From: Methanococcoides orientis
GTDB lineage: Archaea > Halobacteriota > Methanosarcinia > Methanosarcinales > Methanosarcinaceae
Reading direction: 5' to 3'
Length of the DNA: 64,000 nt
Assembly: GCF_021184045.1 (NCBI RefSeq)
Contig: NZ_CP073710.1
Coordinates: 1,746,685-1,810,684 of the forward strand
Shown here: positions 1,537 through 8,555 of the stretch, one piece after another
How the letters are laid out: each line of letters starts with the position of its first letter
Position numbering within the stretch: position 1 is the stretch's first letter
Program-made: the position numbers and the translations under genes
Notes under the pieces: generated by a model
Told to the model about the DNA's origin: nothing
Seen by the model: the letters and a program-made list of their open reading frames with translations, nothing else
Database searches by the model: none

Positions 1537-2244
<708 letters not shown>

Positions 2245-2334
2245 GTTTTTAGTTTTTCACATAATACATTGTATGTATGCTTCTTAAATATTATTAGAGG
2301 ATACTTTTTTATTAAGTAAAAAGGGGAAAACGAC

Positions 2335-3444
2335 ATGAAAGGTGGAATAAGCAAACTGGTTATCTTTGCTCTGATAATACTGTTCGCAACAACAGTCCTT
2401 GCATCAGCGAACACCGGGAATGATGCTGATACAATGATCGAGATCGAAGAGATATACAGCAGCATTGATTCCTGTGATATAACACTTTCATCTTCTTCAG
2501 CATTAGAAAACCTCATCCTTGAAGTACAGCTTGTGCGTGAAGAGAGGATCATCGATATTGCCACCATACCTATTGACAGTATCAGCGTGAATTCCAGGGT
2601 CATAAAAGTTGTCCATTGGGAAACAAAGACTGCCGAAGATGGTGCATATGAAGTACGTGCACAGGTCCTTAACGATAAAAAGGAGCTAAATTCTACCGAA
2701 TATGAGTTTGTTCACGGAAGGCAGGTGATCCCGGAAGTCGTAATAGAAGGCACTATTGCCAATTCCGAAGGGGTGACTGCAGTCATAAGACCAGTTGATG
2801 CAAGCCTCGTAGATATAGAATACATGCTTGTGGACGGTTTTGATGTCATCTACCGTGCAAAGGATGAGAAGGTGTCCGTGCATACAACTCCCCTTACAGT
2901 CCATAAGAGATGGAACACACTTCTATTGAACAATAAGGAATACACCGGACTTGTCAAGGTCAGGCCATCCAATGAAAAAAGCGCTATTGTGGTAACAGAC
3001 AGTTTCACTTCAATGGACGATGCAAAGATCACCGATGTGTACAAGGATGAGATCGGTGCAAGTGCTACCATTGCAGGAAATTCACAGGTGCCTTTTGACG
3101 GGTATGTCCAGTTCACAGTTTATGATGAGAACGGAGAGAATGTCGTCGAATCCGCGATCATGAGATCACCCATACTGCTCACAGATGATGACGAAACAGT
3201 AGAGACCATCTGGGATAACAGGCTCCGGGAAGGAAAGTACAAACTTGTTATCGAGATCATAGGTAATGATGGAGACGGTCTCGACATTCAGGAAACCATT
3301 ATCGACGTGGAAGAAAGTGTGACCATATCAAATAATATTCCTGAAGAAGCGGAAGAGGATAACAGCATACCATCATTTCTGGTCACAGAAGCTGCTTTTG
3401 TTCTTGCCACTGTGGCATTTGTGTTCCGCAGAAGACATGCATAA
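2335..3444 (+). CDS. Secreted, membrane-anchored protein of unknown function
   Basis: 369 residues. An N-terminal signal sequence (about residues 7-25, ending near LASA) is followed by a long beta-rich extracellular region. A single C-terminal membrane helix (about 347-364) ends in RRRHA, so the protein should be anchored with its body outside the cell. I recognise no catalytic motif; the body resembles tandem Ig-like domains with alternating VxV strands. The FtsX-type permease follows 15 bases downstream and is probably co-transcribed. The first 18 coding bases are largely complementary to the tandem small RNAs at 4.75 and 4.96 kb (see findings). GGGG lies 10 bases before the ATG. Confidence 0.7.
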   Translation: MKGGISKLVIFALIILFATTVLASANTGNDADTMIEIEEIYSSIDSCDITLSSSSALENLILEVQLVREERIIDIATIPIDSISVNSRVIKVVHWETKTAEDGAYEVRAQVLNDKKELNSTEYEFVHGRQVIPEVVIEGTIANSEGVTAVIRPVDASLVDIEYMLVDGFDVIYRAKDEKVSVHTTPLTVHKRWNTLLLNNKEYTGLVKVRPSNEKSAIVVTDSFTSMDDAKITDVYKDEIGASATIAGNSQVPFDGYVQFTVYDENGENVVESAIMRSPILLTDDDETVETIWDNRLREGKYKLVIEIIGNDGDGLDIQETIIDVEESVTISNNIPEEAEEDNSIPSFLVTEAAFVLATVAFVFRRRHA

Positions 3445-3459
3445 TAGAAGGTAATTCAA

Positions 3460-4617
3460 ATGCCATATGAGCTGTTCATTGCCCTCAGACATCTCAAAAG
3501 CAGGCGTCGTCAGTCACTCATATCCATAAGTGCCATTGGGATCGCGGTCACAATACTCGTGATCTCGAACGCTTTTATGGCAGGATTCACAGAAGAGATC
3601 TATGATGTGACCGTCGAGAACCTCCCACATGTGGTGGTTACCCCTGCTGAGGAAGAGGAATACATCCATTTTTACAATAGCATCATACCCCGCATAGAAA
3701 GGATCGAGGGGGTGGTGGGAACCTCGCCTGCCCTGGATGGAGAAGCTAGTCTTCGATACAAGGAGAAAACACTCAACATCTTAATGAGAGGAATAGAGCC
3801 TGAAAAAGAAGATTCCGTATCCCACATCTCAGAGGACATGATAGAAGGGGATCTCTACAAGCTTATCCACTCCAAGAATACAATTGTGGTAGGTGACAGC
3901 CTTGCAGAGGACCTTGAAGTGAACATCGGCGATGAGATATCCGTGAACTTCCCCACAGCAACACCGGCATCCTATGAAATAGTAGGGATCTTTGACACAG
4001 GAACACCTGCCGATGATGTACTTACATACACATCCCTGAAGACAGCACAGGAATTCTATGATAGTGGTGATGCCATCAATGTGATAAATATCCGTCTGGC
4101 AGACTACAATGAAGACAAGAAGGTCGCAAAAGAGATCGAAGCTCTCGGTTACGAAGCATCTGGCTGGACAGAGACAAATCCGGAGATACTCCAGACCATC
4201 ACCATTGAAACAACATCCAACAACATAATACTCGCACTCATACTCCTGATAGCATCGTTCGGAGTGGTCAGCACACTGAACATGGTGGTAATGGAGAAGG
4301 TAAAGGAAATAGGAGTCCTGATGGCTATGGGAGCACCTGCTTCCGTCATACGCAGGATATTCATACTGGAAAGCGGCATCCTGGGGTTGATCGGTGCTCT
4401 CACAGGCTGCCTGCTTGGAACTGCCATTGCCCTGGCGATCGGAAGCTATCCGGTTCCTGCTGATTTTTATGGCATCGAGAAGATACCGGTTATCATCAAC
4501 ATTTCAGATATACTTATAACTGTTTTAGTCGTGTTTTTGCTCAACCTGATCGCAGGCGTTTACCCTGCCCAGCGCGCAGCCGGGCTGGATCCATTAGAGG
4601 CAATTTCAACACATTGA
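3460..4617 (+). CDS. FtsX/MacB-type ABC transporter permease
   Basis: 385 residues with FtsX-family layout: an N-terminal cytoplasmic stretch ending SRRRQS, a first membrane helix (about 21-43), a large extracellular MacB-like domain (about 45-260), then three C-terminal helices (about 262-285, 310-335, 355-375) with the conserved EKVKEIGVLMAMGA segment that contacts the ATPase. Such permeases act in lipoprotein or peptide extrusion or mechanotransmission, not classical import. No ATP-binding subunit lies on either side, so the partner must be encoded elsewhere. The secreted protein just upstream is a likely functional partner. Confidence 0.85.
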   Translation: MPYELFIALRHLKSRRRQSLISISAIGIAVTILVISNAFMAGFTEEIYDVTVENLPHVVVTPAEEEEYIHFYNSIIPRIERIEGVVGTSPALDGEASLRYKEKTLNILMRGIEPEKEDSVSHISEDMIEGDLYKLIHSKNTIVVGDSLAEDLEVNIGDEISVNFPTATPASYEIVGIFDTGTPADDVLTYTSLKTAQEFYDSGDAINVINIRLADYNEDKKVAKEIEALGYEASGWTETNPEILQTITIETTSNNIILALILLIASFGVVSTLNMVVMEKVKEIGVLMAMGAPASVIRRIFILESGILGLIGALTGCLLGTAIALAIGSYPVPADFYGIEKIPVIINISDILITVLVVFLLNLIAGVYPAQRAAGLDPLEAISTH

Positions 4618-4706: not shown

Positions 4707-4818
4707 TGCCGTCAAGTGTATATACAATTAGGAAATAGTCCAAATTGTGTAATGAGCGGGACCCTAATTTCTTTTCAAGTACCCCCACTCCCCAACCCGC
4801 TCATGCCACCTTTCATCA
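4707..4818 (+). ncRNA. Small-RNA candidate unit, copy 1 of a tandem pair (alternative: leaderless small ORF 4752-4859)
   Basis: First copy of a 112-bp unit repeated 209 bp downstream; the 74-base core 4745-4818 is identical in both. A TATA element (GTATATAC, about 4718-4726) lies about 30 bases before ATG 4752, so transcription should start just before the stem. ATGAGCGGG (4752-4760) pairs perfectly with CCCGCTCAT (4796-4804) around a 35-nt C-rich loop containing ACCCCCACTCCCCAA. A CCACCTTTCATCA tail and a T-run (TTTTTT, ending near 4825) follow, as in a small RNA with a terminator. The same start also opens a 35-codon ORF (MSGTLISFQVPPLPNPLMPP...). Perfect core conservation does not separate the two readings. 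Confidence 0.6.
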
Positions 4819-4915
4819 ATTTTTTACCGAATAAACTGTTTTTTTGTAGATGTTCCTGAAAATACTGTAACAAATTATTGTATATTAGATTTGTATATTA
4901 TACGAAGGTATAATT

Positions 4916-5027
4916 TGCCGTAAAGTGTATATACAATTACCAAATAGTATTCTTTGTGTAATGAGCGGGACCCTAATTTCTTTTCAAGTACCCCCACTCC
5001 CCAACCCGCTCATGCCACCTTTCATCA
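4916..5027 (+). ncRNA. Small-RNA candidate unit, copy 2 (alternative: leaderless small ORF 4961-5044)
   Basis: Second copy of the unit, with the same TATA spacing (TATA about 4927-4934, ATG at 4961), the same 9-bp stem (4961-4969 with 5005-5013) and C-rich loop, and a GTTTTT run about 20 bases after the core. Flanks outside the core have diverged, so the core is under selection or recently duplicated. The alternative 27-residue ORF shares its first 22 residues with copy 1 and then differs. It converges on cofD. Confidence 0.6.
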
Positions 5028-5107
5028 GCATAGTACTCAAATGACTGTTTTTAGAGATGATGTCAATACACTAATGCGGTACTGTATATTACACAATAAT
5101 ATAATTT

Positions 5108-6028
5108 TTAGATATTATTAAAAATATCAATTATCTTTTCTGAAAGATCTTTGCTAATTCCCACCGACCTCATCATAGTATCCGTAAAGAAGACATCGAT
5201 CCCCAGGTCTTTTATGGCATCTCCTGCCGATTCATCCCTTACATCAAGGACCATTGCATCAAGGAGACCATTGTAGCACTCTGCAACCCCTACGGAAGAA
5301 ACATCGAAGCCACAGGCACTCATCAATTTTCCTGCAGGCCCGCTTATTGGTTCTTTTCCTATGATAGGACTTACTGCAACCACTTTCTTCCCTTTGAGGA
5401 TGTCACGCATACCAGGTAGGTTAATGATCGGACCAATACTTGTGATGGGATTACTGGGACCTATCAGGACATCATCCTCCTTTTCAAGAGCTTCAATTAC
5501 ACCCGGAGATATGGATGCGTCCTCAATGCCATCCTGTGAAACCTCTAAGACCTCAGGACCACCATGCTGTTTTACCCAGAAATCCTGAAAATGGATCCTG
5601 CCGGATGGCGTTGTTATCATTGTGGACACAGGATCATCCGACATTGGCAATATACGGGATTTGATCCCAAATGAAGAAGCCATTTTCTGCATAGCTTCCG
5701 TAAGGGAAAGGTCCTGCCTTAGCAGTTCAGACCGCATGATGTGCGTAGCCCTGTCAAGATCCCCGATCATCATCCCTTCGTCATGACCGGCAAGCTTCAT
5801 CGCCTCATGGGTACTGAATGTATCATCCCTGACACCCCACCATTTTCCCTTATCGATCCTGTCAGAAAGCAAATAGAGCACAGTATCAATATCAGGTGTG
5901 ATCAGATTTCCTGAGACCCACAGGTCTTCAGCTGTGTTCACAACCACGGTGACATCACCTTCAGGAAGGACATGTCTTAAGCCATCGATCAATTTGGGAG
6001 TTCCTGTTCCACCGGACAATACGATCAT
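5108..6028 (-). CDS. cofD: 2-phospho-L-lactate transferase CofD (coenzyme F420 biosynthesis)
   Basis: 306 residues, full length. CofD transfers the lactyl-phosphate group from LPPG (or the PEP-derived analogue) to the deazaflavin Fo, giving F420-0 (or its dehydro form). Family signatures are MIVLSGGTGTPKLIDGL at the start (the nucleotide-binding loop), NTAEDLWVSGNLITPDIDTVLYLL, LGDRDRAT-like GDLDRATHI, and the GPSNPITSIGPI loop near residue 190. It is divergent from the HD hydrolase gene, with 64 bases between the starts. F420 is the hydride carrier of methanogenesis in this lineage. Confidence 0.95.
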   Translation of the reverse strand: MIVLSGGTGTPKLIDGLRHVLPEGDVTVVVNTAEDLWVSGNLITPDIDTVLYLLSDRIDKGKWWGVRDDTFSTHEAMKLAGHDEGMMIGDLDRATHIMRSELLRQDLSLTEAMQKMASSFGIKSRILPMSDDPVSTMITTPSGRIHFQDFWVKQHGGPEVLEVSQDGIEDASISPGVIEALEKEDDVLIGPSNPITSIGPIINLPGMRDILKGKKVVAVSPIIGKEPISGPAGKLMSACGFDVSSVGVAECYNGLLDAMVLDVRDESAGDAIKDLGIDVFFTDTMMRSVGISKDLSEKIIDIFNNI

Positions 6029-8477: not shown

Positions 8478-8555
8478 GGGATAGTAGGGTAGCCTGGTCG
8501 ATCCTCGAGCGTTTGGGACGCTTGGACTGCGGTTCAAATCCGCGCTATCCCACCA
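8478..8555 (+). tRNA. tRNA-Pro (anticodon TGG), CCA encoded
   Basis: The acceptor stem GGGATAG (8478-8484) pairs with CTATCCC (8545-8551), then A73 and an encoded CCA (8553-8555). The anticodon arm GAGCG-TTTGGGA-CGCTT shows anticodon TGG, reading CCA proline codons. The T-arm loop is TTCAAAT. No intron. Confidence 0.95.

Follow-up and report, generated by a model that had tools for sequence, protein, structure and literature searches.

Small RNAs that invite comparison with the element studied here have been described in Methanosarcina mazei and Methanolobus psychrophilus. The M. mazei sRNA162 is a 191 nt RNA of three stem-loops that acts by pairing at ribosome binding sites; its homologues are found in Methanosarcina only and its unpaired linker is the most variable part (PMC3510493). 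From the same species, sRNA154 is reportedly conserved in Methanosarcinales (PMC9765008) and also acts by pairing at ribosome binding sites (PMC5867862); it has two loops and is reported to be induced by nitrogen limitation and to carry a leaderless sORF (PMC5867862, PMC11456600). A third M. mazei RNA, sRNA41, is trans-acting; in polycistronic mRNAs it reportedly covers the ribosome binding sites, for which its C-rich loop is needed (PMC5867862). Nine conserved cold-induced sRNAs are reported for Methanolobus psychrophilus R15 (PMC5378194).

The element described here is a single hairpin, present in two tandem copies in the window, i.e. the whole stretch of 64,000 nucleotides that was analysed from the genome of Methanococcoides orientis (2,494,162 bp, one contig). 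It resembles sRNA162 in being an intergenic archaeal RNA with a putative unpaired recognition stretch and a paralogue, but identity with sRNA162 was ruled out by the single hairpin and the class-wide range. A putative recognition loop is a feature shared with sRNA154, which differs by its two loops, its nitrogen control and its leaderless sORF. An NrpR-type operator belongs to sRNA154, and no such operator (GGTA-N5-7-TACC) was found upstream of any of 201 elements. Compared by description only, sRNA41 and the R15 sRNAs come from the same family of archaea, and the latter, as described, are likewise multi-copy, conserved and intergenic.

Among bacterial RNAs, Yfr1 of the cyanobacteria, whose targets are known, is also lineage-wide and has an ultraconserved C-rich unpaired motif, but that motif, ACUCCUCACAC, lies between two stem-loops. 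The cuckoo RNAs and CcsR of alphaproteobacteria and RsaE and the csRNAs of Firmicutes are, like the present element, multi-copy and often tandem hairpins with C-rich loops; theirs carry CCUCC-like anti-Shine-Dalgarno (anti-SD) words, whereas the loop here is no general anti-SD mimic. CsrB, RsmY and RsmZ similarly repeat a short motif in hairpin loops, but their motif is GGA and their partner CsrA, unlike the motif here, of which there are few per RNA. The family as such seems undescribed in the searchable literature, and a search of papers for the exact text of the motif gave no relevant match. Rfam 15 gave no match at the window element at the gathering threshold or at E <= 5, nor were Rfam matches obtained at the elements of ten relatives.

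The direct repeat occupies positions 4707-4843 and 4916-5052 (137 nt, 87% identity, 209 bp from start to start). An earlier note on this DNA had given the unit as 112 bp; the tandem repeat is real, but the likeness runs on to about 137 nt. The two copies 209 bp apart with a 74-base identical core, which the note had also reported, gave the same values when measured again, the longest run of identity being exactly 74 nt (4745-4818 and 4954-5027). In each copy a TATA box, TATATACA (4719-4726 and 4928-4935), stands at the same distance from the 5′ arm of the stem, ATGAGCGGG (4752-4760 and 4961-4969), in agreement with the fixed spacing noted before. The perfect 9-bp stem around a C-rich loop of 35 nt was likewise recovered in both copies, its 3′ arm being CCCGCTCAT (4796-4804 and 5005-5013), and both arms are backed by folding and covariation. 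A U-rich tract, TTTCTTTT in copy 1, is located in the loop at 4768-4775 and 4977-4984, followed by the near-invariant motif ACCCCCACTCCCC at 4781-4793 and 4990-5002, identified by sequence searches and alignment and in copy 1 also by model matches. All these features lie on the plus strand. The hairpin alone folded with z = -3.5, and longer transcripts with z = -2.8 and -2.0. The T-runs said to follow the stem are found after both copies, but unequally: copy 1 has T6 at 4820 and T6-7 at 4839, within a T-rich stretch that may be a terminator (4820-4846, +), and copy 2 has just T5 at 5048.

When 112 genomes of the taxonomic family were searched at the DNA level, the C-rich core was matched in all 14 genera, and a pattern search with at most three mismatches matched 91 genomes, with an almost empty control. 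The 80 loci that were read had a common architecture: behind a TATA box the stem starts with (A/G)TGAGCGGG and leads into a variable stretch, after which come a U-tract, ACCCCCACTCCCC in one to three copies and the complementary arm. With a two-gap pattern the same hairpin was detected on GTDB contigs in Methanosarcina, Methanolobus, Methanohalophilus, Methanomethylovorans, Methanothrix, Methanoperedens and ANME-2 records. A covariance model, R1, for which the family was defined by a covarying stem closing a loop of U-tract and ACCCCCACUCCCC, found members in 175 of 186 genomes of the order (117 of the 118 good ones) and in 225 of 238 genomes of the class Methanosarcinia (150 of the 151 good ones). 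In a sample of the phylum, all 84 class members were positive and none of 309 others (E <= 1e-4). Both window copies, which stood in the training set of R1 as one sequence, scored 59.7 bits (E = 6.5e-13) and hence belong to the family as defined. The hairpin repeat is far beyond chance, because the same hairpin is found again in most Methanosarcinia genomes.

No R1 match was obtained in g6 and g7, whose genomes measure 1.3-1.8 Mb, or in f39, nor in individual incomplete genomes from g12, g13 and g145. Most genomes have one to seven copies, and up to about 20 occur in genus g16 of family f3, which judging from named records is presumably Methanoperedens. Seven R1 matches, four of them sharing one GAGGTGTG stem, were found in the genome that we take to be Methanolobus psychrophilus R15 (G043); taxon names given to genomes with such a G handle are presumptive. 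Single members of the family may be listed as anonymous sRNAs in published lists, such as that of the M. psychrophilus cold-induced sRNAs. The four G043 paralogues, which besides the GAGGTGTG(TG) stem have in common a AACGCCGTTAAC-like sequence close to the promoter, are candidates for the cold-induced sRNAs of PMC5378194. A perfect archaeal element was also present in MAXT01000059.1, binned as Desulfuromonadales, which is probably archaeal DNA that was placed in a bacterial bin.

In M. orientis the repeat sits between a gene for an FtsX/MacB-type permease on the same strand (3460-4617, +) and the convergent cofD, encoding 2-phospho-L-lactate transferase (5108-6028, -), both assigned by Pfam. 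These neighbours are common to Methanococcoides and Methanohalophilus. The Methanococcoides locus holds one, two or three copies depending on the genome, and the spacing between the element and the end of cofD is constant. A third M. orientis copy was located by R1 at C1:2088644-2088707 (-), with E = 1.8e-9. A possible, doubtful fourth copy at C1:892764-892815 (-; E = 0.06) has the same loop, the unrelated stem CCTGCCA/TGGCAGG and no clear TATA box. Elsewhere in the window ARAGORN called a tRNA-Pro (tgg) at 8478-8555 (+), absent from the Rfam output at the gathering score.

Beyond these two genera the flanking genes differ and are frequently on the opposite strand. By reading of their sequences, as distinct from family searches, the neighbours there look like replication factor C large subunit, a YrdC-type protein, an Mnh-type antiporter subunit, a membrane pyrophosphatase and an MFS transporter. 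The elements are always intergenic, which together with the fixed distance to cofD in Methanococcoides would fit an attenuator, riboswitch or terminator acting in cis on the adjacent genes; we hold this to be very improbable, given a TATA box belonging to the element itself and neighbours that have no relation to one another from genus to genus and in many cases run convergently or divergently. Since the neighbouring genes differ between genera, the element probably encodes an independent, trans-acting RNA.

The position of the promoter agrees with such independence. Of 176 distinct elements, 171 had a best match to TTTATATA of at least 6 of 8 positions in the upstream slot where it was expected; under the same criterion the mirrored slot of the opposite strand gave 29 of 176. 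The distance between the TATA box and the inner end of the 5′ arm is mostly 34-43 nt, and the usual archaeal spacing from TATA box to start places the predicted transcript start at or just before the base of the stem. Judged from sequence, the element has the promoter of its own and the status as a separate gene that are expected for a trans-acting sRNA, and it is very probably transcribed. Covariation, promoter position and distribution give strong support, as far as structure and promoter are concerned, to the proposal in the earlier note that the units are duplicates of a structured small RNA equipped with a promoter of its own.

Covariation among relatives had been suggested as a check, and the stem covaries strongly. 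In an alignment of 44 diverse elements, found through GAGCGGG and C-rich patterns so that conservation within those words is partly an artefact of selection, 10 of the 14 pairs had changed on both sides. Paired cells amounted to 81% in this alignment, compared with 25-53% when one arm was slid by one to three columns, and none of 500 shuffles reached any of the observed pairing measures. Examples of compensated stems are GAACGGG/CCCGTTC, GCGGATGGG/CCCATTCGC, GCGCGGG/CCCGCGC and CGAGCGGG/CCCGCTCG. The weaker R1 matches have wholly different stems (GAGGTGTGTG/CACACACCTC; GTGGTCGGAAATGT; GGGCAGG) with the U-tract and the C-rich motif retained, although these distant matches relax the pattern bias only partly, because R1 itself rewards the motif. 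The hairpin structure is under selection, and that the elements make up a structured RNA family is virtually certain. As the stems vary freely while U-tract and C-rich motif persist, constancy resides in the loop, which the stem appears to hold in place.

The loop is nearly free of G (1.8%) and follows one plan, a U-tract and then one to three copies of ACCCCCACUCCCC. A run of T4 or longer was present in 174 of 179 loops; the motif occurred once in 118 loops, twice in 56 and three times in one. In some weak-scoring matches of the Methanoperedens type the loop has CACCACCTCCT, which is similar to the 16S tail; they may represent a separate anti-SD branch. Weak R1 matches in a Methanoperedens-like genome (G478) carry CACCACCTAATCC or CACCACCTCCTATCC in the loop, likewise similar to the 16S 3′ tail, and possibly form such a branch.

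The earlier note had also read the unit as a leaderless small protein gene or a dual-function RNA. Such a reading could appeal to the ATG at the start of the stem in Methanococcoides and to the proposed dual function of M. mazei sRNA154 (PMC11456600), but the start codon and frame that it requires are not kept across the family. In 171 elements the codon at the ATG position was GTG in 65, ATG in 54, ACG in 16, GCG in 8 and others, including many non-starts, in the rest. The phase from this position to the C-rich motif was spread over all three values (79/47/41), and even within one genus the loops differ in length by single bases through indels in the C-tract. As for synonymous against non-synonymous change, which the note had raised for the small ORF, the changes in the stem are compensatory and not synonymous. 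A protein product is accordingly scarcely credible, and the proline-rich peptide arises incidentally when CCC CCA CTC CCC is read as codons.

The element is multi-copy and tandem, its copy number varies within a genus, and one copy adjoins an integrase in a viral contig, all of which might be expected of a mobile or selfish repeat without function. Loop and pairing are nevertheless conserved over the whole class and flanks are not, synteny is common to two genera, and covariation together with near-universal presence in good genomes refutes a functionless repeat in practice, so that we give it hardly any credence. The viral or proviral contig in question, IMGVR_UViG_3300037264_009246, holds a canonical element at 2050-2109 (+; 40.5 bits) with a TATA box at the right distance, adjoined by a weak phage-integrase match at 2121-3512 (-). 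The RNA gene may there mark a provirus boundary or an integration site.

For the function of the family, our preferred reading, at about even confidence, is a regulatory sRNA with a loop that base-pairs with the mRNAs it recognises, rather than one that binds a protein, and M. mazei sRNA162 and sRNA154 offer precedents for pairing within the same family of archaea; action in trans through the loop, whatever the partner, is likely. Each unit would make a short RNA beginning at the base of the stem, the stem would merely keep the loop open, and the C-rich loop would use a short seed to pair with G-rich segments in several mRNAs, altering their translation or stability. The U-tract is a possible Lsm (SmAP) site; a G-poor loop with T4 or longer is typical of sRNAs that pair and have a U-rich chaperone site.

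None of the target searches was positive. The M. orientis genome contained 65 near-complements of the 12-nt motif against 60 in the control, i.e. no excess. The start regions of 408 genes, from about 464 kb of genome with simple start prediction, showed no special complementarity to the loop (difference -0.15, compared with -0.03 +/- 0.27 when loops were shuffled); in the same test the real anti-SD did show a preference for start regions. An anti-SD sRNA of the cuckoo or csRNA type was rejected, as the loop shows no preference for start regions over gene interiors. At the ribosome binding sites of the cdh (ACDS) operons of five genera the loop matched no better than shuffled loops, so that the ACDS targets reported for sRNA41 show no special match to it. 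The complementary site GGGGAGTGG next to start codons did not recur between genera in 20 genomes; some matches were the antisense of the element itself, the only recurring orthologue was between two species of genus g9, and the excess over the backward control is not informative, that control lacking the ATG context. Known RNAs carrying the complement were absent from 20 of the near-match loci. The results speak against the loop being a general anti-SD mimic and against a single long target that is conserved, and are compatible with several targets read by 6-8 nt.

With four target searches negative, a protein-titrating decoy is a close rival to the pairing sRNA. The loop would then be the site of a single-strand RNA-binding protein specific for C-rich RNA (C4-ACU-C4), and copy number would set the amount sequestered, as CsrB and RsmZ do for CsrA. 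Near-invariance of the motif over the whole class, its repetition in some loops, the amplification to about 20 gene copies in some genomes and the failure of every target search speak for a decoy; the candidate protein is hypothetical, most loops have a single motif, and pairing sRNAs such as the cyanobacterial Yfr1 can have ultraconserved seeds too. We regard the decoy as a real but clearly less than even prospect. More tentatively still, this class-wide archaeal family, which may be conserved more widely than any other regulatory RNA of methanogens and of the related ANME-2 and Methanoperedens, could offer in its loop a docking site that titrates a global regulator binding C-rich RNA.

Archaeal regulatory RNAs are mostly known species by species, sRNA162 being restricted to Methanosarcina, whereas the RNA gene described here is found in nearly every good genome of a class that spans acetate- and methyl-using methanogens and the methane oxidisers of ANME-2 and Methanoperedens. 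The covariance model makes every copy locatable in existing RNA-seq and Ribo-seq data. Because the loop is so constant, a shared partner is very likely, and a partner found in one tractable Methanosarcina would therefore inform the whole class.
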